Below, one piece after another: positions 5,692 through 56,000 of a stretch of DNA of 64,000 nucleotides (its first letter is position 1; each line of letters starts with the position of its first letter). The notes below the pieces were generated by a model. It saw nothing but the letters and a program-made list of their open reading frames with translations, searched no databases and had not been told where the DNA came from. Source of the DNA: Polytrichum commune (lineage: Eukaryota > Streptophyta > Polytrichopsida > Polytrichales > Polytrichaceae); assembly GCA_950295325.1 (NCBI GenBank), contig OX485803.1, forward strand, positions 32,913,554-32,977,553. The letters are read 5' to 3'. The translations under genes were made by a program, and so were the position numbers.

Positions 5692-8600
5692 CTACCTTTG
5701 GTAACTGACAAATTCAGCCAAAGAATTTAAATCAACTTCATCAAGTGTGTAAATTTTGGGAGCTGTTGAATATGACAAAGAAACTGTAGAGATGATTGCA
5801 TCCACATCAATCCGAACACAATTGCTTTCCACATACCTATACTTGTTGCGGCATGGATGCTTTTGAAACCAATGTAGGTAGACCATTGCAATTGGCAAAA
5901 TAGATTCCTTGTCTTTTTTTTGAACTACCCTCTTCATTAAGTCAATTGGCTGCCTACAAATGCCCCACTTGCTACCCACCTTCATCTTGATTTTCTGCAC
6001 CCGTCCTATATAAAACATGCCATTGGTTAATCCTGAATTGATAGTAGTAGGCCTACCCCTGGGTTTTTTTCTAGTTGCCCTCACTGTAAATGTAGAACCT
6101 TGCATGTCTTTAAAGTAGACACCAACATCAAACCCTAGACCTAGCAACATAGACATGGTGGATGATGATGTAGTAAGGTAGTCATCGGAGTTATTGTGAT
6201 AAATAGAATTTTTCATGTGAGTTAGCCTATCCTTGGATAGATATGGATTTCCATTTAACTGGCTAACTAGCGTGGATTTGTAACGGAACGACCTTGGAAT
6301 GTGACTATTGGGAGAACTTGGAAGACGGTGGACTGCTAGAAACTTGTTGCTCCTGCTCGCTGAGTAGCTCCACAAAAACATGCCAAGTCTTTTCCTCCAA
6401 GGCGTGCAACGTGGCCAAATCATCCCCGTGAATGTCATCTTCAAGGACCTCATTAAGGTTAGAATGAACCCTTGTTTCTAGTTCAAAATCTGGGCAACTC
6501 TCCAATCTTGCATGCTCGCATTTAACATCTCCATCCAATCCAGGTTGCGGCGTGCGTGAAGGCTGGTAAGCCAAATGAGAAGGGTCATGCTTTTCCAACT
6601 TCCAAGGTGAGACAAACCACACTTTGTTAGTAGTTGAAGCTTGATTGGATGGTGCCATGTTTATAATTCGAAGCATGATTAGTGCTTCCTTCAATCTTTT
6701 TTTCTAAGTTGCAAGAATTTCCACGTTGGTTGCAATCAATGAGTAGTCCGTTAAATTAGCTTCATTGTCCCCCCACTTGGACTGGATGCAAAGACAACCA
6801 GACATTCTCCATTTTATTATGGATTCAGCCAAACTTGAGGCCATTATCACCATACTCCACATTGGACAAACGATTCAAAGTGTTAGTTGTGTTCACAAGG
6901 TCATGAAAATCATATGACCACTCCATCCCATTCATTCCCCCAATTTTTGAAAAGAAAATTTCATAACTATCACTCCCAATGAGGTGCAGAGGGACCGGCA
7001 AATGTGGATACATGTCTCTAAAATGCTTCACCAAGAGCACAAGGAAGTGGCAAGATAGCTGGACATCAAGAAAACACTAGTGACTCACAAAGTTGGAGGA
7101 AAATGTGAATCTTACAAAGTTGTTTCCAATTGCACGATTGCCATGTGTAAACCATAGCTTCCACAACCTAAAGAATAACAAGACTTTTGCTGCAAGCACA
7201 ATCCTACTTTGAAGGTCAAGAACTTGGGAAGAAAAAATGTCGATGTAATCACCACAAATTTGAAGATACATCTCGGTGCCAAGTGTGCGCTCCAAGTGTG
7301 CTTCTTACTAATTCCTCCTCGTAGCCAAACACTCATGAGTTTTTTGCTCGCACATGCGCTGAGCGGAGTCCCAGTTTTGCCAATCCTTGAGCTGAACATC
7401 CTCCAATTTCAGGCCATGCTCATCAAAAGTGTACTTGTTGTTAATCATTCCCAAGTGCGTGTGGAAAACTCTGTCTTCACCAAGCTGCAAAATCTTCACT
7501 AGCGAATCCAACAGGTTGATCAACTTCTTCCCATTATGTATCCAATCTTGATTGTGAAGACCCATGTAGTTTCTATCTTCATCAAGAGCAGCTGTAAGTA
7601 ACCAATCCTCCCAATTAATGCTCAATCACTCTCTTGCAAGACTTCTATAGTTAGTGAGCATTAGTTGCCATTTTCTATTGTACCCATCACTTGCGTGACC
7701 GATGATGGGCCCGACTATGCTCAGGCACTCTTTTCTTCATAATTCTTTGATCTTCTGCCACTATTGACTCACCCACAATGCATAAAAGCAATTGCAAGTA
7801 GCAACAAACACAAGTCGAGGCAAATTGGAATGGAGAGGATTCACCTTTATAATTCTAGCAAAATCTCTCACACGGCTAGTACGAAAGCCATCCACAATGT
7901 TGTTATAGCCAGAGTCTCCCATGCCTACAACTACCTTGTAATTGAAAACAAAAACATGATTATCTTTTGGTCCACAAAATCCTAGTAATATATCCCAATG
8001 ATGATCCTAGGCAATCCTACCCTTCACCTTAGTTTCATCCTCAGCTAGGATCATAGGGATTGGACCAAGAATTCCATGAGCTTCTTTTGCTTGTTTATAG
8101 ATATGTGCCACACCTCGGAATATGTCAACATGTTTTCCTGGGACAAATTAGACACCCTTCCGATTTACACATTTTATGGAGTTGTAATTTGGACCACCAG
8201 AGTTCAAAGAAAACAAATCGTGCATTCGCCTACCTTCATACATTTTCATTGCTTGTGAAAACACTAGTGAGTTACTAGACCAACGAGCTCCTTGTTTCTT
8301 GTGATTAAGGTTATTTGCCACATCTTTCATAAAATCCCACAATGCAGGTCCCCCCCCCATTGCACCAATCCTATGTGTTGATATTATGTCAGTACAAAAT
8401 TTGTAAACGTTGTGTTCAGCAAATCCCCGTTTGGCTGACTCTCTCAAAGTTGGCTGACTGACTTTCAGCTGTGCTATTCTAGCATTTGCAGACCAATGCC
8501 GCATCTGCTTAGTTTCAATTTTTTGGTTAGCAATCGAGAGTGGGCACTCAACTCAAATACAAACAAGTAACCTGCTTGCCTCCCCAGACTAGTGCCTCTA

Positions 8601-10119: not shown

Positions 10120-11663
10120 GGTGATTAGAAGTATAAACCCTACAACCAGTCTGTCACGTGAGGCGACATCGGGGGCTAAGTCACGTCAAATTAGGAGTAA
10201 ATGGACTCCATTAGGAGTCCATGTGTGTTTGGATGGATTATGGACTCCACTGGGAGTCCTAGTTAGTTGTTCATCCACTCCATGGATGAAATCCACATAA
10301 GATTGGGGTTATGTGGAGAGGAAGGCATCTTGACTTGCCATTGTTGTCAAGTCAAGTCTTGTGAGTGTGTTTTGGGAGAGAGAGAGCTTGTTGTTGCTAT
10401 CTTATGGCTATGGTGTAGTAGATCATGAGTAAAGCCTTTGCATTCTTTCTCCATCACTTGCACTCTTGGATTCTCCCTTTGTGGAGTGAGAGATAGCTTG
10501 ACTCTTGTGTGTGAATTTCAGAGTTTCTTGAGCTTTGTAAGGAGACTTCTTAGTTTCTTGAGCTTGGAGAGAGAAACCCTCATACTTGACAACAATTGGG
10601 CTTATTTTTCATTTTTGGTTGTATTTCTGAGCTAGAATGGCCCAGTAGTGGGAGCAAATGAGTGATACAAGTGTATGAAAGCTTAGTTTGCAATTCCTTG
10701 CAACCCTCAAGAAGATTTTGAGAAAAATCTCCACATCTCTTTTGTTGTTTCTTTGTGTTTTCTTGAATTGTTGATGGTTGAATCTTGAGACCAAATGGAA
10801 TCTCAAGTCACATCTGTCTTGCTTGCAAATTGTGGAAGCAAAGTTTTTTTTTTTTTTTAATCAAATCCGATTTAGTTTTAGTTTTAATTTTTTTAGTTCA
10901 AATCCGATTTGTTTTTAATTTTTGTTGAGCTCCGGACGGATCCGGAGCTCACCGGACCCTCTTGGAGCTCCTGGAGCTCCTGTTCTCCAAGCCGGGCGGG
11001 CAGGCGTCAGCCGGGCCGGGGCGGGCGGCGCCAGCCAAGCCCCATAAGGTAAGCCCCTTACCCTTTTATTTGTTTATTTGTTTTTTATTTGTATTTTTAT
11101 TTGTATTTTTGTTTGTTTAATTAAAAAAATTATTTTTATTTTTATTTATTTTATTTCACATTTTTACTTTCACCTTTCAAACTTGGCATCCCATTCTCAC
11201 AAACTTTGGGGTTCAAATTTGGGGGCATACTAGCTCCGATTGGAGTGAAATTTGAGCCTATCTTGTGTGAAATTTGCCAAGGAATCCAATGGTGTAATTG
11301 GATTGTTGATTGGAATTCAAAATCATTGCTGAAATTAGCAATTTCAACGCTGATTTTTGTTTTTGGGAGCAAATTAACTCCGAACGGAGTGAAATTTGAA
11401 CCTAATTTGTGTGAAATCTTCCTAGGAGTCCATTGGTGCAATTAGTTTGTTGATTGAAGTCCATAATTACCTTGGAAATTAGCATTTTCAACGCTGATTT
11501 TTTAATTTTAATTACCAATCTCGAAACCTTTGCACAATTTTGGAATTCTGGGGGCATAAATAAACACTTGGCATTTGGCAAGGGATTGCCATTTAGATAG
11601 CCCGCAACAGGTGCAGGTTGTCATTACCTTGTAGATAGTTGCAGGAACTCAAGTGATTATTTT
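10120..11663 (+). other. Untranslated 5' region of the gypsy element, possible 5' LTR
   Basis: No gene. The stretch leads into the gag frame and looks like LTR/leader sequence. It holds two 18-bp inverted repeats (GGACTCC...GGAGTCC at 10203-10220 and 10242-10259), a GA-rich block, a poly-T tract (about 10845-10858), a GC-rich palindromic patch (10925-11045, GAGCTCC repeats) and a tandem pair at 11.2-11.5 kb. The left edge may be near 10,150 (TGTCACG), but no matching LTR was found downstream of the element, so LTR borders and primer-binding site remain unassigned. Confidence 0.45.
11229..11510 (+). repeat. Two tandem 144-bp units in the gypsy leader
   Basis: Unit one (from 11231) and unit two (from 11375) share ACTCCGA..GGAGTGAAATTTGA, TTGTGTGAAAT, then TTTCAACGCTGATTTTT at a constant 144-bp offset. 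They lie in the untranslated leader immediately before gag. Confidence 0.75.
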
Positions 11664-13328
11664 ATGGTGCAAACTAGGAGCCGATATTATCGATCTCCAT
11701 CACCAGATTACTTGAAGGACGTGCATACCACAAATCTTGAGCCAGAGGTAGATACCAACGAGGCTTTTGAGCCTATTTCGGCGTTGGACACTACTAGTAG
11801 GCTTCGGATTTGGAGTGTCGGCACGTTCGACGAAATGGAGGACGATCGCCACAATTCAGTGCGTGATCGGTTTTCAGGTCGAGCTGGGGGCATTTCCTTG
11901 CCCGATTGGAAACTCCGGTTTCGTACCTGGATTAAGGAGAAACGTCAAAGGTCTTCCAATTTCAATGATTGGTATGCCTTTGAACTTCTGCCTTAGCATT
12001 TGGAGTATGAGGCACTCCAAACTTATGAACGCTGGACAGAGGGTCATCAGCGACAACTTCGGGAGGTGGAGCAGTATTGGGAGGCTCGGGTTGAGCTTAT
12101 TTCAGCCCTTAAAGATGGGGCGGTTGCTACCTTAGCTCCACCCACCTTAAAGGAGGAGGAATCGCCGGAGGAGTCTAAGGACAAAGAACTGGCACTTGGG
12201 CCAATAGTGGCTGGCAGTAGCACGGCTACCCTTTCACGGATGGCACGTGCTACACAGGCATCATTGACGGTTGTTGGTCCACCACCTCCATTCAATCCCC
12301 TTGCTGAATTTGTCGCACATTTGGAGGTGGAGTATGGTGGATTTTGGCGAGACCAGATGCAGCGCATTCAGGATTTCCGCCGAGAGAAGGATGACACTCC
12401 ACGGACCATGTATACGCGACTCGCACGCTTTGCTGTTGAGTCGGGAGGTGTTTTTGCTGAGAATCAGCTTGTCAAAATCTTTTTGTCTAAGATTGACAAG
12501 CGGCTACTTGAGTTGGCATCACCTCGGATTATCCTCGACTACGAAGGCAGAGCTACGCTTGCACAAACGTTTGCCGCGGTTGAGAGATGTGATCGGGCTC
12601 TCTGTCAACACGATGCCACAGACATGGTATCTTGGATGACAGAGAGTACGAAATCAAGAAGAATTGTCACAGCTACTAGTAGTTTAGCTGAGACTCAACC
12701 CGTTAAGGAGCAAAAGATTTTGCATTGTTGGGGTTGTGGAGAAGCTGGTCATTCGAAGAATGATCCCAATTGTCCTAAGAAGAAGAAAACTCAGCCTTTG
12801 GGAAAATTAAAACAAAAGATGGAACCAGTAAAGGCAGGGGACAATTTTAAGAAAAGACAATTGAAATGTAACCATTGTGGTGGCACTAATCACGATGTGG
12901 ATCATTGTTTCCAACTTCATCCTGAGATGCGGCCTGCCAGTTATGTCACTGGAAAATCTCCAAGGGAGCAGAGTCTTGAGGCTAAGGTGGTAAAGCTTGA
13001 GCAAAAGCTCAAATCTTCTGCATCTTTTGCTCAAATTTCTGAGCCGCATGCGGGTGGTAGCACCTCGGGGTCGGACATGTATATGTTTGGGGCATCTGGA
13101 GAGGTGGTGGCTGCGGCTTCTACGCGATCACAAACATTGGCAAATGCAGTGGCTTCTACAAGTGGTGGTAGCAATGAGGTGTCACATCCTCGCCATGCCG
13201 GACCAGCGGATCAAGTTGGTCAAGCACGTTTACCTCTCTCATTTGGATTGGTAGACACCACTGTTATTGGGGCTAAAAACCCTGTACCTTTGAGAGATGG
13301 GGATTCCATTTCGAAGGATGTTACGTAG
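11664..13328 (+). pseudogene. gag: Gag polyprotein with two zinc knuckles, one internal TAG
   Basis: This frame starts at the ATG at 11664 (MVQTRSR...) and runs to a TAG at 13326, broken only by a TAG at 11994. It is the nucleocapsid/capsid part of the retrotransposon. The middle (about 12,270-12,640) has the helical retrotransposon-gag look. It is followed by two zinc knuckles: CWGCGEAGH...C near 12,727 (C-x2-C-x4-H-x6-C, a long last spacer) and CNHCGGTNHDVDHC near 12,870 (classical C-x2-C-x4-H-x4-C). A basic linker of Lys residues lies between them. A Ser/Gly-rich tail leads to the stop, after which the same frame continues into protease. Both stops are one transition from a Gln codon. Confidence 0.85.
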
Positions 13329-13331
13329 GCA

Positions 13332-14345
13332 TTGGCATATAAAATTCTCCATATGCCAATTTTCTCGGGTTCGGAGTTGATGGCTCCGGATTTCAAGCCT
13401 GCTGGAGTTTTCCATTTAGCTGGGAAAATGTTAGAAGGTAAGGCGGATTTGCCATCCCTTCAAGTATCCCAAGCTGTTGTTGACGTACCTGTGGTTGAGG
13501 AGGTGGAGGACTTAGCCAATTTACGAGCGAGCCTTGCGGATGCGGCGATCATTGCTTTTGGTAAGCACACTGATATTCCTCCATCAACAATTTCAGCAGT
13601 GGACACGTCCTTTTCGCATTATGCAGCGGGAGCGGCATATCTTGCAGATATTTTTGCAAGGCCTGCTCGCGAGCAGCATAATTTGCAACCTGGAGTTGTA
13701 CGGCTAATGAACGACAAATCTTTGTTTGTCGTTTCACGCGCGGATATGCCTACTATTTGTGCTACACCACTGAGAGTTATGATGGATTCCGATGCTCAAC
13801 CGGTTATGATTGGCAAAGGACTTGCTGACAGTCTTGGATTGACGCCAGCAAATTTAGATCCTTGTCCATTCACAATTATGACTTCAGTAGGGGGCACTGA
13901 ACGTGCAACATGTTACACCAAGACATCTCTACGTTTGATTTTTAATGTGGGGGCAAGACCTACCTACACCCATTTGTCAATGAAGTGTGTTGTTACTAAT
14001 GCTACCAACTATGATATACTTGTTGGTCAGCAAGCTCTTTATCCACTTGGCTTTGGTTTGGATAATTGGACTGAAAAGACATGGATTAGACCGGAATGGT
14101 CTTTTGGAGATGGCAGGAAGGTATTTATTCCTGTAGCATTTGTAGCTACTTCTATGACTATGGTTGCGGAGGCAATGTTTGGTTGCAGCGGTTCAGTTGC
14201 GGATTTGCCTTGTGCTCCAATTTTGTTGGAGGAAACATTGGACTACGCTTGTATTCTTTATAAATTTCTGCTCGACATTTCAAGGATCCACCTCCACCAT
14301 GGCGTACTCCTAAGGAGTTATCCGACCATTGTTGACACATTGTAG
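13332..14345 (+). pseudogene. Retroviral-type aspartic protease region of the gypsy element
   Basis: This continues the gag frame past the TAG at 13326. The protease would cleave the polyprotein. The active-site triad is normally D-S/T-G; here the matching position (13785-13796) reads Asp-Ser-Asp-Ala within MMDSDAQPVMIGKGL, a Gly-to-Asp change that should kill activity. The downstream segment YDILVGQQALYPLG (about 14,010) fits the conserved ILG-type strand of the fold. After about 14,270 the sense reading moves one base back, where FKDPPPPWRTPKEL continues toward the methyltransferase; the remainder of this frame to the TAG at 14343 is probably not genuine protein. I see no methionine start, as expected for a polyprotein part. 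Confidence 0.8.
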
Positions 14346-14350
14346 CGGAT

Positions 14351-15412
14351 TTGGGGCTTGGAGAGACACCTCCAACGTCATCCTCATTTTCTTTTGCTCA
14401 ACCCATTCGTTGGCAACCACCACCTGAAGGTATTGTCCTTGTAGAAATCTTTGGGGGCATTGGCACAGGTTTGGCGGCAGTGTTGGAGGCTGGGATTACA
14501 GTTAGGCGATATATTCATGTGGATAATGGATATACAGCCAACAGAGCCGTCCGACACCACATTCAACAATTGTTGTTGAGGTACCCCGTACAATTGTCAG
14601 CCACTGCCATTCTTGGATGTTGTGGTCAACTTCCTCAAGATGTCACTATGATTAGTGATGAGGATTTGAGAAGATTGGACCACGTGGATTTAATTATTGC
14701 AGGATGGCCTTGTCAAGGCCATTCACGGGCAGGAACTGGCCAGGGTTTGGATGATCCTAGGTCTAGTTTGTTCGCGGATTTGATGCGATTGACACAATGG
14801 TGGTTTACCCACCAATCAACTCCGCTAGGGTACATTTTTGAAAATGTGCCATTATTGGGTGATACACGGCACAAAGTGGTGAAGGATGGTGAGTACATTA
14901 ATCAAATTCTGGGTACTCCAACATTTCTGGATGCTGCATCCTTGGGATCCTTTGCTCATCGGCCTCGTTGGTTTTGGACCAATTTAGTATCACCTCAGGT
15001 GCTTTCAGCGGCGATCACGCGCATTTCCCGCCTTATGAATCGCAAGGTGGATGACATTTTGGATGATCATCGTGTTTCCGTGGCAGTTTCGAAGGATGAC
15101 ACCTTACCATTTGCATTAATTAACAAGGTGGAAATTTCGAGAGGTGCACTACCTACTTTTGTGACATATCCACGGTCTTTCGCATTTCGATCTCGTGGAC
15201 CAGACATGGTTTGGGATTCAAAATCCCAAACTCATGATAAGTCTACGGCAGATGAGCAGGAACGCGCCATGGGTTTTCCTACAGGCACCACGGCTGCTCA
15301 TGGGCTTCAGGAAGGTCAGAGACGTTTCCTATTGGGACAAGCTATGGATCTCAATAGCATTGTGTGGATAATTGGAATTTGTCTTGCTGCTCAACAACGT
15401 ATGGATGACTAA
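14351..15412 (+). CDS. C5-cytosine DNA methyltransferase domain embedded in the gypsy polyprotein
   Basis: An uninterrupted 353-codon stretch between protease and reverse transcriptase encodes a complete-looking C5-cytosine methyltransferase core, predicted to transfer methyl from S-adenosylmethionine to cytosine. Motifs appear in order: motif I EIFGGIGTGLAAL-like from 14444 (cofactor site), motif IV GWPCQGHS with the catalytic Cys codon at 14711-14713, motif VI ENV at 14840-14848, motif VIII RPRWFWTN near 14960-14983, an ERAMGFP segment near 15268, and motif X LLGQAMDLN near 15332. The RPRWFW form recalls the Dnmt3/DRM group, whereas PCQ is more usual for Dnmt1/CMT and bacterial enzymes; phylogeny is needed. 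It begins by readthrough, not its own ATG; a TGA lies just upstream (14333) and TAA ends it (15410). Retrotransposon methyltransferases have been reported from dinoflagellates and charophytes; this looks like the same kind of capture. Confidence 0.9.
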   Translation: MGLGETPPTSSSFSFAQPIRWQPPPEGIVLVEIFGGIGTGLAAVLEAGITVRRYIHVDNGYTANRAVRHHIQQLLLRYPVQLSATAILGCCGQLPQDVTMISDEDLRRLDHVDLIIAGWPCQGHSRAGTGQGLDDPRSSLFADLMRLTQWWFTHQSTPLGYIFENVPLLGDTRHKVVKDGEYINQILGTPTFLDAASLGSFAHRPRWFWTNLVSPQVLSAAITRISRLMNRKVDDILDDHRVSVAVSKDDTLPFALINKVEISRGALPTFVTYPRSFAFRSRGPDMVWDSKSQTHDKSTADEQERAMGFPTGTTAAHGLQEGQRRFLLGQAMDLNSIVWIIGICLAAQQRMDD

Positions 15413-17437
15413 TTACTTCCTCTGAGGGCAGAGTACAATGGTCAGGGGGCAATGGAGCTGCAATCCAAGGATCACATGGAGGTCAATGACACTGAGGGAT
15501 TATTTTCTTTGAAACAACAGGTTGCGGAAGAGTTTCGAGCCCAACGTGTTTTTTCGGCTTTGGCCCAAAATTTTGGAAAGTTGGAGGCCCACAAAATGTT
15601 TCCACTTCTATTTCTTGGTGACACTTCATATGTGGGTAGCTATTTAGCTACACAAACTGATTGTAGTGGAGAGGATACGCATTTGGATTCAAGTACAGAT
15701 GATGGGGGCAAAGGTGTTGCCCTCTCCACGCACTAGCAATCACAGGCTGTGCTGGCACCAAGTGGCAATCCTTCTATGAAGAAGGAAACAACGGAGTTTG
15801 ACGATTGGCCAATTAAAGTGGGGCCAAAACTTACTGGTGTCGAAGCACGAAAGGTACGGGCATTTATTCGCTCTTACCGTAATTGTTTTGCCTTTAGTCT
15901 TCATGATCTTGAAGGATATAAAGATAAACCTGTTCGTATTCAACTCGAGGACGACCATCCTATTTTCAAACGGCCGTACAGACTTAGTACATCTCAAAGG
16001 TTGGGTGTTCAAACTCGATGTAAAAAATTATTGGCAGCGGAATTGATTGAACTCTCCAATGGAGAATATGCTTGTGCCACGGTTATGCCTTCAAAAAAAG
16101 ATATCTTTGGCAACTGGACGGAAAAACGGATGTGTGGTGATTATCGTCCAGTCAACCGCAAGACCAAGTCGGATCGATATCCAATGCCGATGCCAGAGGA
16201 GTTGTTTGATGCACTGGGATTTGCTAGAATCTTCAGCACTCTGGATTTGAGCTCTGGTTATCATCAATTACCTTTGTTGTTGGGTGATCGGGTGTAGACC
16301 GCATTTTGGGGAATTGATAAAGATGGCAAGGATTAACTTTATCATTGGAAATTTTTGCCATTTGGTCTTAAGAATGCACCAGCTAAATTTCAGCGGGTGA
16401 TGGACCAATTATTGGCTGGTTTACAGTTTGCTAGATGTTACATTGATGATGTTATCATATTTAGTATTAGTCCACAGGATCATGTGAGACATTTGCAAGC
16501 GGTATTTGAACGACTACAACGGTGGGGACTCCGTTTACATCATGGCAAATGTAAGTTTTCCCATGATCGATTGCCCTATTTAGGCCACATGATTGTTCCT
16601 GGCGGTCTTGGTGTGCAACAGGCGAAGGTGGATGTTTTGCACAAAATTCCCGCACCTAGTGATGTACCACGACTTCGGGCATTTCTAGGATTGGCAAATT
16701 ATTATTGAAGGTTTGTAAAAAACTTTAGTTTGATTGCCAAACCTCTCACCATTTTCACGAGGAAAGACCAACCATGGATTTGGAGTCGGGAACAACAACA
16801 TGCATTTGATACATTGAAGTAGAGGCTCGGTTCAGCGCCAGTGCTTCGACGCCCGGATGTGTCTAGAGCTTTTCAATTGCACACGGATTGGAGTGCAATG
16901 GGATTGGGAGCGGTATTGACACAGAAAGATGAAGAGGGAAAAGAATATGTGGTGGCTTATGCATCTAGAAGCAATAATAATGTTGAATGTAATTATTCTT
17001 CATATGAAGGCGAGGCCTTGGCGGCCGTTTGGGCCATTGCACATTTTTGACCTTATTTGTATGGGCAAAAATTTACTTTGGTGACTGATCATCAGCCTTT
17101 AAAATGGCTTATGGAATCAGATAAACTCACTAGGAAACTTGCTAGGTGGGCATTGTTACTTCAAGAATATGACTTTGAAGTTGTTCACCGAGCAGGAATT
17201 GCCAACTTGGATGCGGACGGATTGTCTCGCAATCCAAGTCCTTCGGATGAGGATTTAACTGGAGCCAAGTGGCATGGAGATTGTGATCGTGAGGTAGTGC
17301 CAGGTTGGCATGCTGCCACATATCTTACAATAATGTCGGGATTGGCTGCTGAGATCATTGTGGAAGAACAAGATGAGGAGGTTGATAAATCTGTCGTTGT
17401 TAGTGATGTGTGGGAAGACCAGGCGGTTTTGCACTAA
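15413..17437 (+). pseudogene. pol: Reverse transcriptase and RNase H of the gypsy element
   Basis: The frame of the methyltransferase continues after the TAA at 15410. A variable linker (15452-15736) precedes the RT. RT landmarks are MCGDYRPVNRKT (about 16,130), the catalytic Asp in STLDLSSGYHQ (about 16,240), LPFGLKNAPAKFQRVMD (about 16,355) and the YIDDV box (about 16,442). RNase H follows with HTDWSAMGLGAVL (about 16,880), YEGEALAAVWA (about 17,008) and VTDHQPLKWL (about 17,080). Stops interrupt at 15734, 16295, 16334, 16706, 16820, 17048 and 17435, yet no frameshift is needed anywhere. Several stops fall where the family has Arg or Gln (for example the second residue after ANYY, and AHF-stop-PYLYG), so CGA-to-TGA and CAG/CAA-to-TAG/TAA transitions explain them well. 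Confidence 0.93.
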
Positions 17438-18880
17438 CTTCAACAAGGGATATTTCCTCTTGGACTATCTGCTATGGAGCGAGATAGAGTTAGCCATCGA
17501 ATAACAAGGTTTCGTAGGGCAAACGGTTTGTTATTTCGTGTGTGGCCAAACGGAACGAGGCGCATCGTTCCAAGGCCAGATCAAAGAGCTTCTTTAGTAC
17601 GGCAAGTGCACGAGGAGGTTGGACATTTTGGAGTGCGAAGGACACACTCTATGTTGCGCAACCAATATTGGTGGACTGGGATGTATCAACAGGTTGTCAC
17701 TTATGTTTCTAGGTGTGAAGTATGTGACCGGGTCAGATCAAGTTTTAATACTTTATCACCTCAACTTCAGCCTTTACCTATTATGGGTTTGGGATATCGT
17801 TGGTCTTTGGATTTTTCCGGACCGCTTACTATCACTCCACGTGGGGCAAAGTATGTATTTGTGATGGTGGAGCATTTTAGTAAGTGGATTGAACTCGTGG
17901 CTCTTCCCCAAAATTCCTCAGAATTGGCGGCTATGGCATTTCTAGATCGAGTTTTGGCACGGTTTGGAGCGCCTGCAGAGGTGTTGACGGATCAAGGGAG
18001 ATAATTTCTTGGATCTTTCGAGGCTTTGTGTACTAAGGCTTTGATTGATCATCGAACAACTTCCAGAGATCACCCTGAGGCAGATGGCTTAGCTGAACGA
18101 GTTGTTCAAACTGTCAAGCGCGGTTTGCGGAAGTATGGGTTGTTTCATGGCAACCATCGCGATTGGGACTTGATGTTACCATAGATAGCAATAGGTTACC
18201 GTTTCAGCAGGCAAACATCTTTGGCATCCTATAGTCCTTACCAACTCTTGTATGGACGGGAACCAATTTTACCTAGCTCTGTGCGAGAGAAATTGGCTCC
18301 TATGGTAGACTTGGATGATCCAGATGTTTGGGCTCAATGTCTTCATGACCGAGCAGAATTCTTTCAAAAGGCCATGTCTATGGCCATGGAGAACTTAAAC
18401 ATAGCTCAATATCGTGATACATTACGGTATGCCCGGATCCGCAGTGGAGCTTATCGACCTCATGTTCGTAGATTTTCCAAGGGGGATTATGTTTATTTGC
18501 AACGGGAGGCACCTACGACATTGGATGTCAAGGCTGGGCGCACAATTTTGCGGGTAGAAGATGTTTTACCAAGTGGTATATTATTGTTTGAAGGCAATGA
18601 TGGACAGGAATGTCGTGAGCATTCAAAGAATTGTGCTCCATGTCACCTTCCCATCGATGGCTCTGTGCATCCCGAGTTGGCGGTTGTACCACAGGGTCTG
18701 CCTTGTTATGTGTGTGGAGAGAAGAAAGGAGCTGCAACAATGTTATTGTGCGACCATTGTCAACGTGGATGGCACATGACATGTTTGACACCTCCCCTTT
18801 TGACTCTTCCTTCTGGCAATTGGGTTTGTCCTCGTTGTCGGAAAACCTCCTACTCCATGGCCGTTAATGGTCATGATTAG
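17438..18880 (+). pseudogene. Integrase with C-terminal PHD finger
   Basis: Same frame as RT, with stops at 18002 and 18182. The integrase zinc-binding HHCC region is seen in HEEVGHFGVRRTHSML and CEVCDRV (about 17,610-17,735). The catalytic core has D (WSLDFSGP, about 17,808), D (VLTDQGR, about 17,985) and E (DGLAERVVQ, about 18,090). The segment SYSPYQLLYGREP (about 18,224) is the conserved end of the core. After a linker comes a C4HC3 PHD finger (about 18,704-18,838): CYVCG, LLCDHCQRGWHMTC, then WVCPRC. PHD fingers commonly bind histone H3 tails, so here it probably plays the targeting role that chromodomains play in chromoviruses; that is inference. The frame closes at the TAG at 18878-18880. 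Confidence 0.92.
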
Positions 18881-19515
18881 GGATTTTGTGGATGTTTGCC
18901 ACATGTCTTAGTGGTGAAGTTGTCATCTAGTTGGTCGGAAGTTTTATGGGATTGAAAATCACATTGGGAGAGTTATCAAAGAATTCAACATAAATTGTTG
19001 AAGGCGATTAAGGATGGGGCTCACATTGCACCCAGCCTATAGTTCTTGGGTTACTTCCTCAACCATGAATTTAATTCCTTAGATTACCACTACCCAATTG
19101 GATATGTACAGATGTAGCAACAACTTCATCATGTTCAACACCTCTACCGATGAGTGTGTTTGTTCCTAGCCGATTGGAAGGGCTCCTTATCTGCTAGGGG
19201 GGGCACTTGAAGAGGTGGTTGTTTAGCATATTAGTTTGGTATGTTTATTTTGCTAATTGATGTTGATGACGACACTCGATCTGTTGTGTTTAACGATCTT
19301 AGTTTACACGACAAGTCAACCATCACGCATGTTAAGAAAACACGTTCATGTCGCACATGCAATTCCAATAAGATTGGATTTGCACCCTCCAATCAAGACT
19401 GAACCGCATGAGAGTTGATTACAATCTTCATGCCTCAATTGAAAACAATTCAAATACCAAAACCTCACCAACCGTAACCCTCTCATAATCCAAGAGCCCA
19501 ACCAAAAACAAAACC
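18881..19515 (+). other. 3' untranslated part of the gypsy element and its right flank
   Basis: No gene. A G-run with adjoining purines (19196-19203, TAGGGGGGGC) is a candidate polypurine tract, where plus-strand synthesis would start. The sequence after it does not match 10.12-11.66 kb, so the 3' LTR seems to be missing or too diverged for me to see. Confidence 0.4.
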
Positions 19516-41355: not shown

Positions 41356-43586
41356 ATGGCAAAACGTCAACGTACAATGACAGACATGTTAGTTAGGGTG
41401 AGAAATCCTAGAGAGTCCGTGTTAGAAATTGAACATGTTGCTATCAGTCCATCAACTTCAGCTATAAACAACGATGAAAAAAATCACATTAAAAAGGCCA
41501 ATGAATAATGGAAAGATGCATGGTATGATCTATATGATTGTATAGAGTTCAACAAAGAGTCAGGAAGAGTGTTTTACAAAACTTGTAGAGAAGGAGGTGG
41601 GAAATTTGTGTATGCAAGTGAGGGTTCAACTAATGTTAAAGTTTCAGCACTACAATACCATTCTAAAAGCAATGACCATAAAAAATTGTCATATGCTAAA
41701 CATGTGGGCAAAAAAACTTTGGAAAAATGTGTTGCTAAAGCTAACCGTGCATGTGACGAGGTTGTGATGTCACTCTTTAAGGCTGTTTATTTTATAGGAA
41801 AAAATGTATTCCTTGCCATAAGTTTGCATCGTTGTGTGATTTGCTTGTGTCTTGTAAAACTCCAATAACTGAAAAGTTGTATCATCATGAAAAAACATGT
41901 ATAGACATGATGTTTGCAATTTCTACTATACTTCAAAGACAAATCTTAGATAAAATTCGAGATTCTAGATTTTTTGGCATAATGATTGACGAAAGCACTG
42001 ACATTTCAGTTGTGAATCATCTTGTAATTTTCGCTACTTTTTAAGAAGGTGGTGTTGTTACAACTAGCTTTCTTGGTTTATTGTGGATTGTTGATGGGCA
42101 AAAGAGCTCAAGTGTGATTTTTGACTTACTTATTGGTGTTTTGAAGACTTGGGGTTTAGATATGAATAAGTGTGTAGGTTTTGGATCTGATGGTGCATCT
42201 ACTATGGTGGGTAAGAACACAGGTGTGACTACACTTTTAAAAAAGTTGAACCCTTTTCTTACCTCTACCCATTGTGTTGCTCACATAACAAATCTAGCTG
42301 CTTTGGAAGCTTCTAAAATAGAAAGTTATAAAGAATTGTCGTTGGATGTTGATCATGTATTGAATGCATTGGCTGATCATTTTAACAAATCTTCTAAAAG
42401 GAAATCAGCTTTGCAAGCTTTACAAGATGAATTGAACGATGCTCAAAAAATATTAAAGAAATATCACAAAATTCGTTGGCTTTCTAGATTTGAAGTTGTG
42501 ACAACATTATGTGACTCGTTAGAGTCTGTATTGGTATATTTGCGTAATTCTTGCTCTTCTTCTAGTGTTCACGGAACTCATGTTTTATATGACAGATTGA
42601 GAGAGTTCAAGTTCATTTATGTTCTCTATTTTCTAGCAGACATTTTACAAACGCTTGGCAAATTGTCTAAGATTTTTCAATGCAAGCTTGTGGATATTTC
42701 TTGTTTAGGGTCCATTGTGAAAAGCGAAATAGCTACTATTAGAATGTGTTTTTTAGTTGAGGTTTGTGACTTGAATCAAGAAACTTTCAATCCTTCTTTA
42801 GGATTTCATGTAATTTCAGAATTTGGACCTCCAGGTGGATTTCTCAGGCGTTTGTCAAGCGAAATTAGAGGGTCTAAATTTCATAGTGTAGACATGATTC
42901 GGGATCCTAGTGGGGTTGATTTAGAAGTTGCTTTGTCTTTTCAAATGTTGTATGCTCAAGCAGTTTGTGATGCATTAAAAAGTAGATTTGTTGACAATGA
43001 TCTTATTGATTGTTTTAAGATTTTGAGCCCTACTAATTTGCCTCAAAGGCAAGTTGGCTTGAGTTCTTATGGAGTTGTGCAGTTGGATTTGCTTCTGAAA
43101 TATTATGGAGAAGAAAAGCGTATTGGGGGTACAACATATCCTCCATTGGTAAATGATGTAGCTTGTAAGCAAGAATTCTTTGCTTTCAAAGTGCAAGGTA
43201 GTTGTGAATGGAGTGGTCGTACCTTCGAGGATTTGTGGATATCTATAAGTTGGAGTCCTTCTTTGAAACTTAAATTTTCTAACCTACTAACGCTTGCCGA
43301 CATTGCAAGATGCCAATGTGTTAGTACTGCTACTTGTGAGAGAGCTTTCTCTGTGCAGAATACCATCAAGCAAAAGAAAATGAATCGAATGACAACAACA
43401 CACTTGGATAGTGTGATGCGGGTGGCGATTGAAGGACCAACCAAAAATTTTGAGTTTATTTTGGAGGAAGCTATATCTTTGTGGAAGGATTCAAGAAAGT
43501 TTCGATTCTTGTTTACTAATCCTGAGAAATATCTTGCAGGAAGAGTAGAGGTTGAATCAGAAGATGGTGAGGACTTTCACCCTTAA
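41356..43586 (+). pseudogene. hAT transposase (DUF4371 plus hAT dimerisation domain), lightly broken
   Basis: From the ATG at 41356 (MAKRQRTMTD...) to TAA at 43584 the sequence encodes a roughly 740-residue transposase of the ZMYM/ZNF862-like hAT type. A TTF-like N-terminal domain (about 41,570-41,720) leads to the DUF4371/RNase H-like catalytic core: first Asp in MIDESTDIS (about 41,985), second in FGSDGASTMVG (about 42,190), the HCVAHITNLAALEA helix (about 42,270), and the C-terminal ATCERAFS with the catalytic Glu (about 43,330) in the dimerisation region. Defects are a TAA at 41506, a frameshift in the A-run near 41,800-41,806 and a TAA at 42042. After that, 500 codons are intact. Few defects suggest recent loss of function. 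Confidence 0.93.
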
Positions 43587-53001: not shown

Positions 53002-56000
53002 TCATTGGTACTTTTGAGAAAATTGGGTAATACTCGTCCGCAAAAGAGGTTCTCCTCTAAGTGAAGCATGAGTTGTTTCTGCAATGTGTACTTCAACAAA
53101 ATCCCCAGGCTTCAAGTCCACCATAGCTTCGCAATCCTTCTCTTTAATTAAAGGATCACAACCATCCTCACTTGATGCAGCACCAGAGAGGCCATCTAAG
53201 ACAGGTATTTTAGGGAAAATAACTCGATGCCCTTTATCACTCTTCCCAACCAGCTCTGTATCTGGTGCTCGCTTATTGGGACCCTCCACAAGCACAAGCT
53301 GTGTAGTCCCCAGCTGTGACTCAAACCTTGGAAGGGTGGTTTGCCGGAAAGTGGTAATCATCTCTGCTAATCGCCTCTGCTTCACAGGCTCAGGAACATC
53401 ATCCTCATAATTACGGTGTGCGTGAGTTTTTTCTCTCATACTGTAGGCAAACATATATGCCATGTCATAACCAACTGCTTCTAACAATTTTATGGTATCC
53501 TCATGATCTTCTTCAGTCTCACCACAAAATCCTGCACCAGACATAGAAACATTGATGTAAATATGCTGATATATGTAAAATATCTTCACAATGCACAGCC
53601 CTATAGTTCTGCAAAAAATATTGAACCAACCTGTAGATGAGTACATTGCATGCAACCACAACATAGCACAAACCATACAAATTAAAGCTCATTTATAGCT
53701 TAGCATCTTGCATGAGAACAAATATCCATGTAGTCAATAGAAATGGAGCACAATAGAGCCTGCTGGACCCACTAAATCAATTGGACGATTTTAAAAACTA
53801 ACCAGAAATGAAGTCACTGCTTATGCTGACATCAGGAAGAATAGTCCGTATCCTTTCAACACAATCCAAATAAGCCTCTCGGGTATATCCGCGTCTCATT
53901 AGTTCTAAGACTCTGGTGCTCCCACTCTGTGCGGGCAGATGGATCATATTACAAACGTTGGCACGGTCCCGAATCAAATAGAGTAGATCATCTGGGAAGT
54001 CTTTTGGATGGGGAGAAGTGAAGCGAAATCGCATCTCTGGGAACTCGGATGACAGACTGTCAAGAAGATGAGTGAAGCTCAAACCCAATTCCTTGATTTT
54101 ATATATTGTTGAAAATCCTGGACTCAGAGTTGAAGCATATTTCTCTTTTGCCTCGTCTTTAGAATCGATCTTCATAGCAACATTTGTTGCCTGATCCCTT
54201 CCTTTGTCCGCAGCAGCAAGGCCAGTACTAATGTCATCTTCCTCAAGGTTTTCAGACGCATCATTGTAACTATTGACATTTTGACCGAGCAAAATGACTT
54301 CCTTGACGCCTTGCTCCCACAGCTCACCAACCTAGGAGAGTTTCCATAAATCTTTTCAGTACATACAAAATGAAAACAACCATATTGACCAGGCTTTTCT
54401 GCATAAATGCTAGAATCAACCACATCCATCATGTTCTTACACCATCCTATCTTACAAACAGAAAGGTGCTCTCATGTTATCCACTTCTTGCATTACTCTG
54501 AATGACGACAAAAGAAATAGTCACCACCCATGTTTACCAATTCCAATCTTGCAAAATTCATTCTTTTAAGGTTGAAACAATACTACCTACACAAAGAAAT
54601 TAAGAAAGACTACCTCTCGAATGATAGATTTAACAGGACGAGACCGTTCCCTCCCTCTTGTAAAGGGGACAATGCAGAATGAGCACATATTATTACAACC
54701 ACGCATGATTGATACAAATGCTGTCACAGAGTTCTTTGCTATTCGCACAGGTGAAACATCTGCATAGGTTTCTTCAAGTGAAAGAAGAGTGTTGATCCCA
54801 GCCTGCCCTTCATCAACAAGAGACAGAAGGCGTGGAAGATCCCTGTTCAGATTCATCATATTAGTAACATCAACAAATGTTGATAATATCAGGGAACTTC
54901 ATTGCAATCATTTCAAAAGGAATGAAACATCAACATAACAACTGCATAAATGCATACTTAGTCCCCATCAAAAGGCTTAATGATTTACATTGTTCTTTGA
55001 AACACACCACAGCAGGAATAGAACTGACCTGTAAGCATCAGGTCCACAAACAACATCAACCATTTTGTCTGCAACAATTAACTTCTCCTTCAATCGTTCT
55101 GCCATGCATCCCAGCACTGCAACCTTGGGAGGTTTAGGTGCCCGCATGGCACTTATGGTTGGATCCCTATTCCACCTGAAGCACAGGACGTCTGTAAATA
55201 TAAATGTAACAAACTAAAGAAGGTGCATATGACATGAAGTTAGATTAGATTCTCAGGAATGGCGCAAGCTCATGGAGCTTGCTACAATTTACATATACCT
55301 AGTTCATACACATCAAGATCATGGTGCATGTGCTTCTTTCATGTGTACATTTGCCAATCAACTGATAAAGGACCTCCCTAAAACAAGTCCTAGGAATTAT
55401 TGAATGGAAAGTCCTAATATATTCACTGTGGCAGCTCAAAAGTGTGGACAGGTAACAGCAAGCACAATTAAATGTAAGCTCTGGAGACAATAAGAACTCA
55501 CCAACCTGGTTTTTAAGTGCTTGAAGTAATTTAAACGGTGCCAGATTTTATGTTCCGCGTTCTCTCGTATAGCACAAGTATTGATAAATATAATATCAGA
55601 TTCTTCGGGTTTCTCAACAACCTCTGTATAGCCTGCGTCTTTCATGATTGCAAGTACTATTTCCATGTCATTCACATTCATTTGGCATCCATAAGTCTCT
55701 ACGTATAATCTCCCACCATCCACCTTCCTGGATGCATCCTCGAGATAAGGAATGACAGTTGCCCTGTAATCCACACATTTGGTCCACTGTTTTAAGAGAA
55801 CCACTGGATGCACGCTATGAAGAATAAAGAAATCAAGATATTAACTTTGCGCAAAAAAGTCCTCAAGAGAACCTCAAGTGTTCCACCTTACTGCAGAGAA
55901 AGTTCATATAGTGAACCCCTTCCAATGATCAGGTTAATAATATACTGCTTGGCAATGTATCATTATCATAGAATCACTGCATTCAATCAAGTTGAATCAC

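Follow-up and report, generated by a model that had tools for sequence, protein, structure and literature searches.

The window analysed here, 64,000 nucleotides of the Polytrichum commune genome, carries on its plus strand a retrotransposon of 9162 bp (10152..19313) whose polyprotein includes a C5-cytosine DNA methyltransferase (MT) domain. This copy has the unit form A-internal-B and the ends TGTCACG...ACACGACA; homology to L001, a related plant-type retroelement on contig CADCWO010000201.1, stops at both ends, and a 4-bp target site duplication, AGTC, flanks them (10148..10151 on the left and 19314..19317 on the right). The domain order is gag (CCHC), protease (PR), MT, reverse transcriptase (RT), RNase H (RH), integrase (INT) and PHD finger. 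The gag region with its CCHC zinc knuckle (11664..13328, a single frame) contains in-frame stops at 11994 and 13326 and is intact in L046 and other copies. The retropepsin-like protease (13740..14240) has a PF13650 match below the cut-off and an active site reading DSD here versus DSG or DTG in relatives. Downstream of the MT lie a fast-evolving linker (15413..15733), RT with RNase H (15737..17435) and an integrase with an H2C2 zinc site and an rve core (17438..18703), the last two with premature stops in this copy, and finally a C-terminal PHD finger within the integrase frame (18704..18838). Both the PR-RT-RH-INT order and the Ty3-like RT place the element in Ty3/gypsy and, with the 4-bp target duplications, bear out the gypsy assignment of the first-pass annotation. 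Among solved structures, the RT-RH of L001 was nearest to Ty3 (6.7e-100) and its integrase nearest to PFV.

The window copy is dead, as judged by the gag stops, a frameshift and, in the linker 5' of the MT, a TGA at 14333, a TAA at 15410-15412 that ends the open MT stretch, and eight stops in RT-PHD. Four of these eight fall on residues that are R, Q or W in L001, a share too low to decide for a methylation-decay signature. The frameshift leaves gag and protease in frame 0, and the MT shares frame 2 with RT-INT; protease and MT form one frame in relatives of this copy. The TAA reads as a lesion of the window copy, the conserved stop being the TAG at 15734-15736, and the MT domain itself is uninterrupted. 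Before the G-run described below, the 3' region contains a non-coding block (19000..19041, plus strand) that is strongly conserved: it is nearly identical to L001 from about position 6751, while the two elements are otherwise about 25% diverged. The leader holds a tandem duplication (11218-11502, about 144 bp, about 80% alike) that is also present in most fetched copies of subfamily 1. Elsewhere in the window, an open frame at 42045-43586 is a DNA transposon remnant whose match to the hAT-family dimerisation region falls slightly short of the Pfam cut-off, and exons of a CDK5RAP1-like tRNA methylthiotransferase lie on the minus strand at 53002-55840. Among the best 120 of 7857 matches, this gene shared 67-68% identity with Marchantia, Riccia and Calypogeia, about 64-66% with seed plants, 84% with two further sequences and 75% with a third, in keeping with the land-plant host that had been proposed from the window alone; by this gene the host reads as a bryophyte, probably a moss.

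The MT domain occupies an open stretch of 358 codons (14336..15412, plus strand). None of 200 base-shuffled versions of the element contained a stop-free run of this length, the longest shuffled run being 261. The domain matched PF00145 above the cut-off (E 5.9e-13) and contains motifs I (14444), IV (PCQ, 14699), VI (ENV, 14837), VIII (14954) and X (15320) in unpermuted order, which confirmed the earlier description of a C5-methyltransferase with these motifs between protease and RT. The catalytic residues P125, C126, Q127, E169, N170 and V171 are among the columns conserved to at least 90% in 73 aligned rows. A single-sequence search of solved structures ranked DNMT3A first (3.7e-9), and a profile built from 29 relatives matched DNMT3A at 8.8e-24, plant DRM-type enzymes at 1e-13 to 7e-10 and HhaI at 4e-7, so that homology also places the domain in the proposed family. 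No DNMT1 or CMT chain was found among the 60 profile matches to solved structures up to E 10, and a DNMT1/CMT origin was rejected on this search. A DRM identity was rejected by motif order, unpermuted in the element and permuted in the host DRM, whose exon at G000:C2:4703600-4703956 (L090) has motifs IX-X preceding motif I. A candidate host DNMT3 locus proved by its permuted motifs to be DRM, and no host DNMT3 was recovered from the home-genome matches. Because the nearest solved relatives are DNMT3 enzymes and the motif order is unpermuted, we call the domain DNMT3 type; judged by its sequence it is DNMT3-like in the catalytic domain, and it is predicted to act catalytically on DNA.

Copies in the home genome and their split direct repeats

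The home genome (407.8 Mb assembly in 64 contigs, the seven examined for length measuring 42-78 Mb) yielded at least 123 methylase matches, all above the cut-off. This number is a lower bound, since 123 of 353 candidates were scored, and it mixes element and host sequences: 20 fetched copies and the window copy belong to the element, and one match is the host DRM. The 20 copies were picked from the methylase-family matches for a first frame of at least 1265 aa, and the sample is therefore biased towards intact copies. The first frame contained the protease string in 20/20 copies and the exact motif-IV string in 19/20; L062 was identified through its PF00145 match. RT followed directly after the stop in the same frame in 14 of the 20, and a lesion came first in the other six. 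The second frame was open over 1045-1048 aa in 11 copies, and both frames were open in 11/20, which provides the intact copies of the same domain order that the first-pass annotation had suggested looking for. Fourteen long-form copies could be dated from their two A repeats, which were at least 99.2% identical in 12 of them and 94.6% and 97.5% identical in the remaining two, indicating recent insertions. The family is multicopy and young, with intact members in the home genome.

The ends of the element differ from the usual LTR-internal-LTR form implied at first pass. An LTR search of the window alone found no terminal repeats, and an LTR-less element was considered until same-genome copies revealed split direct repeats, A1-I-B1-A2-B2, in place of a complete LTR at each end. 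Repeat A (10152..10590, plus strand, right limit approximate by analogy to sister copies) includes an inverted repeat conserved in L001 (10329..10356), and repeat B (19206..19313, plus strand, 108 bp) is directly preceded by a polypurine-tract-like G-run (19194..19205); A and B each occur once here and twice in long-form copies, laid out as A1 - coding - B1 - GC - A2 - B2. Repeat A measured 333-444 bp in the seven copies whose layout was resolved closely, and repeat B measured 105-111 bp. The B1-GC-A2 junction was found in 16 of the 20 fetched copies, while L046, L047, L057 and the window copy are without A2-B2; B1-B2 recombination or insertion of a one-repeat circle would each give such unit forms. 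Repeat B started right after the G-run in 7/7 copies examined, and the repeat unit is thus B-GC-A, with the G-run bounding the start of B.

The same element ends were located in 17 of the 20 fetched copies (the left end was not located in L059, L060 and L062), and exact 4-bp duplications flanked 16 of these 17. The exception, L064, had none, and L047 has two possible left ends, one of which fits a 4-bp duplication. When the boundaries of the window copy were shifted, 4-bp agreement occurred in 61 of 14640 trials. The internal B-A junctions read GACA-GC-TGTC in 16/16, as in L001, and insertions start with TGTC and end with GACA next to the 4-bp duplications, the GC being lost. Such a pattern would be expected if the integrase cut one- or two-repeat circles at the palindrome GACAGCTGTC. 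The circle-junction model is an old one that was dismissed for retroviruses. The topology A1-internal-B1-A2-B2 is that of DIRS/PAT-like split direct repeats, but the tyrosine recombinase of the DIRS order was not found, and the second frame carries an rve integrase. In L001, a primer-binding-site search limited to the initiator-Met type gave 3 matches with 3 mismatches each, versus 7.2 expected by chance, and Rfam returned nothing at gathering score. We tentatively suggest, as a possibility less probable than its opposite, that the retroelement operates on circular DNA, with its retroviral-type integrase cutting GACAGCTGTC, the Gag-level MT methylating the circles and the H3-reading PHD placing them.

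A conserved in-frame stop between methyltransferase and reverse transcriptase

The linker 3' of the MT is followed by the in-frame stop TAG CAA TCA (15734..15742, plus strand). The first frame reached the MT-RT boundary in 17 of the 20 fetched copies and was ended by TAG in all 17, with CAA-YYA following in every case (TCA in nine copies, CCA in one and TTA in seven as the codon after TAG-CAA) and the frame continuing past the TAG for 37 to 1048 codons. The other three copies (L061, L064, L065) have an earlier lesion stop, and L064 and L065 retain TAGCAATCA. In L001, gag-PR-MT and RT-RH-INT-PHD are both open and lie in one reading frame, split by a single TAG with the CAA YYA context. Many proteins among the other relatives end at a common point at the MT-RT boundary. 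The relative P0114 has a tyrosine where others stop, followed by QS, as if a leaky stop had mutated to sense. The family's TAG-CAA-YYA fits the leaky-stop motif UAG-CARYYA; UAG-CAA-UUA is the tobamovirus context, and leakage of a few per cent is usual at UAG-CARYYA. An RNA structure 3' of the stop (15743..15866, plus strand) is common to the window copy and L001, with 34 pairs, none broken and two compensatory in this comparison of two sequences; against shuffles, the RNA downstream of the stop scored z -4.8 in L001 and modestly better than shuffled RNA in the window (z -1.85).

The conserved TAG between MT and RT puts the MT in the Gag polyprotein, where it should be made at Gag level, and we predict readthrough at TAG-CAA-YYA, with the MT at a Gag-like level. 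In the window copy MT and RT-INT share a frame, as first described, but the assignment of the MT to Pol needs correcting, since in the family the MT ends the Gag-PR-MT frame and the conserved TAG precedes RT. It is unlikely that the TAG is an ordinary stop and that RT-INT is supplied by reinitiation, splicing or a separate mRNA. In favour of this reading, a Marchantia gene model (P0143) joins both frames, apparently omitting the boundary. However, the same frame is used on both sides of the stop, the TAG-CAA-TCA, -CCA and -TTA variants all fit the leaky motif, and CAA-YYA is invariant in two subfamilies that are 62% identical in the MT, all of which speaks against an ordinary stop.

Relatives, phylogeny and the PHD finger

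A protein search returned 121 relatives at E <=1e-3 (at least 120 listed), and a search with the MT part of the L001 polyprotein returned 35. Relatives with a named source came from Sphagnum troendelagicum, S. jensenii, Marchantia polymorpha, Calypogeia fissa and Closterium. The expected extension of the phenomenon from charophytes to bryophytes was therefore found, in Marchantia, Calypogeia and Sphagnum as well as in the multicopy family of the home genome. The translated domain, searched as suggested at first pass, retrieved relatives from bryophytes and Closterium; no Klebsormidium nitens sequence was identified among the matches. The Closterium protein (P0155) is without the middle of the MT domain, including motif IV. 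Thirteen proteins of 1330-1451 aa (P0121-P0126, P0128, P0129, P0131-P0134 and P0136) hold CCHC, protease and MT in one frame and end in recurring boundary tails, whereas the Calypogeia protein P0138 was assigned solely through MT and homology, with no match to the protease string. No stop parts MT from RT in P0144, P0148 and P0107, and the MT of P0151 and P0154 is located between RNase H and integrase, so the Gag-level arrangement is not universal. The MT directly precedes the integrase in P0152 and P0153. P0151-P0154 are gypsy polyproteins with a terminal PHD, a writer-reader pairing under another domain order.

A scan of bacterial genomes gave five loci, four Streptomyces enzymes and L001. 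The latter is a 9285-base contig filed under a cyanobacterial MAG, which closes on itself by 127 identical bases to a unit of 9158 bp; P0002 is likewise filed under Candidatus Obscuribacterales. The two filings indicate that such elements contaminate bacterial bins. Scans of viral contigs gave only phage-type MTases (32 loci in one scan) or nothing. A quick MT tree was built from 66 rows after 11 near-identical rows had been thinned; four phage rows and a single partial DNMT3A sequence served as the outgroup. The window grouped with P0004 and P0001 and then with the gag-PR-MT clade that includes L001 (a supported set of 16 rows), the Sphagnum, Marchantia and Calypogeia rows formed a separate clade, and Closterium, P0144, P0148 and P0151-P0154 fell outside on long branches with unsure placement.

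Eleven genome copies have a second frame spanning 1045-1048 aa, and 10 of them, all except L059, contain the PHD string. The nearest solved relatives of the PHD finger are CHD4, PHF12, PHF21A, KAT6A, KDM5, UHRF1 and AIRE, and many PHDs of these types read the unmodified H3 tail. This likeness makes chromatin targeting a reasonable guess, and by analogy the PHD might steer the element to H3K4me0 chromatin.

Proposed role of the enzyme and comparison with known systems

The domain order and its conservation, the intact multicopy relatives, the TAG-CAA-YYA stop, the PHD and the split repeats with 4-bp duplications are read directly from the DNA. From them we propose, with moderate confidence, a young bryophyte Ty3/gypsy family in which a DNMT3-type MT, last in Gag-PR-MT, is supplied at Gag level and methylates cDNA before integration, with the PHD steering the new copy. 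Most ribosomes would halt at the TAG, so that the MT reaches a Gag-like level and is packaged in particles, and RT-RH-INT-PHD would come from the readthrough minority; with leakage of a few per cent, each particle would hold far more MT than RT. Newly made cDNA, whether circular or linear, would be methylated by the MT ahead of integration, inside the particle or as the cDNA enters the nucleus. A new copy would then be inserted with the mark that the host gives to inert DNA already in place and might be hidden from DNA sensing, or its recognition as new might be delayed, while the PHD tail of the integrase would direct it to chromatin in which H3K4 is unmodified. Cytosine methylation is the means by which plants silence transposons, and an element that brings and multiplies its own writer would turn the weapon of the host into part of its own life cycle. 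The leaky stop yields a concrete prediction, an MT level like that of Gag, and the layout of the repeats suggests that circle junctions can be used by an integrase of retroviral type. As the family is young, intact and abundant in a bryophyte and is also present in the genetic model Marchantia, the role of the enzyme is directly testable.

It is improbable, in our estimate, that the MT acts mainly in trans on host chromatin or sister copies, either limiting the element's own copy number or feeding host silencing. Slowed retrotransposition was raised as an option by de Mendoza et al. 2018 (PMC5890265, available parts), and the home genome, with its at least 123 methylase matches, owns methylation enzymes such as the DRM at G000:C2:4703600. 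Against this, the inferred expression in a particle polyprotein points to particle or incoming DNA, and action in trans would need proteolytic release of the MT.

Selection on the MT bears on whether the enzyme is still active. The two subfamilies were compared through L046 and L056, which gave a dN/dS of 0.11 for the MT, 0.45 for the adjoining linker and 0.03 for RT-RH. The MT evolves faster than RT-RH and integrase, with 62% identity between subfamilies versus 90-91%. Between the window and L001, pN and pS were 0.195 and 0.761 for the MT and 0.207 and 0.791 for the protease. Among close copies, in which changes are few, the MT dN/dS was 0.62 and 0.72 in two subfamily 1 pairs and 0.24 and 0.43 in two subfamily 2 pairs, and RT dN/dS was 0.05 in the sole subfamily 1 pair with both MT and RT measured. 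The raised values count against strong recent constraint; possible readings are a weak recent constraint on the MT or diversification of the enzyme. We consider it quite unlikely that the MT has ceased to methylate DNA and instead binds nucleic acid or fills a structural role within Gag, or that its substrate is element RNA. Apart from the values of 0.62-0.72, this reading could draw on the K. nitens MT, which showed no activity in yeast in the sole published assay we found for the nearest known kind, a result its authors call inconclusive because human DNMT3B also failed there (PMC5890265, available parts). However, PCQ, ENV and further motifs have been kept over a divergence that saturates synonymous sites, which argues for continued catalysis on DNA. 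A chance nested insertion or assembly artefact, conceivable when the window copy alone was known, is refuted by PR and MT in one frame in 20 fetched copies (selected by methylase), by the same order in 13 full-length gag-PR-MT proteins, and by the liverwort and Sphagnum proteins.

Compared with known systems, the element MT is closest in its catalytic domain to plant and animal DNMT3 and is instead embedded in a Gag polyprotein, while plant DRM, including that of the host genome, has a permuted motif order unlike the element MT. Chromoviruses are gypsy elements with an integrase chromodomain; they share a histone-reader-type domain at the integrase C-terminus, which is a PHD finger here. Tobamovirus-type leaky stops are alike in having an in-frame stop with nearby RNA structure, but the element has a DNA methyltransferase before its stop. 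DIRS/PAT-like elements share the A1-internal-B1-A2-B2 layout, to which the unit-length circular contig L001 also corresponds; they use a tyrosine recombinase, whereas the moss element has an rve/DDE integrase and 4-bp target duplications. Tca2 bypasses a gag-pol stop that is likewise in frame, according to the available parts of its description, and the domain ahead of the stop in our element is a DNA methyltransferase (PMC2194720).

Land plants were said to lack DNMT-bearing transposons (PMC6338049), and a 2025 survey, in the parts available, mentions that retrotransposons of streptophytes and dinoflagellates contain DNMT3 members (PMC12344493). In open-licence literature other than preprints, covered mainly through titles and abstracts, we found no description of land-plant cases, PHD-bearing gypsy elements, readthrough or unusual ends. 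The kind itself is already published, and the features not found described are the leaky stop after the MT, the PHD and split repeats combined with a retroviral-type integrase. The following comparisons draw on the available parts of de Mendoza et al. 2018 (PMC5890265). SymbioDIRS-Dnmt3 of the dinoflagellate Symbiodinium, whose MT produced CG methylation in yeast, also carries a DNMT3-type MT in a retrotransposon, but with a DIRS RT and a tyrosine recombinase versus the Ty3-type RT and retroviral-type integrase found here. The nearest known kind is KnitGypsy-Dnmt3, a DNMT3 in a gypsy element of the charophyte K. nitens, which is alike in its unpermuted DNMT3-type MT within a gypsy polyprotein, its purifying selection and its DIRS-like repeats, a figure legend giving DIRS repeat structure with gypsy domains; the likeness is drawn from the published description. 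Its MT lies in the Pol ORF and its host is a charophyte, and the word PHD is absent from the main text of that paper, whereas the moss family, present in many copies in a land plant, has its MT together with Gag ahead of a conserved leaky stop and bears a PHD on its integrase.
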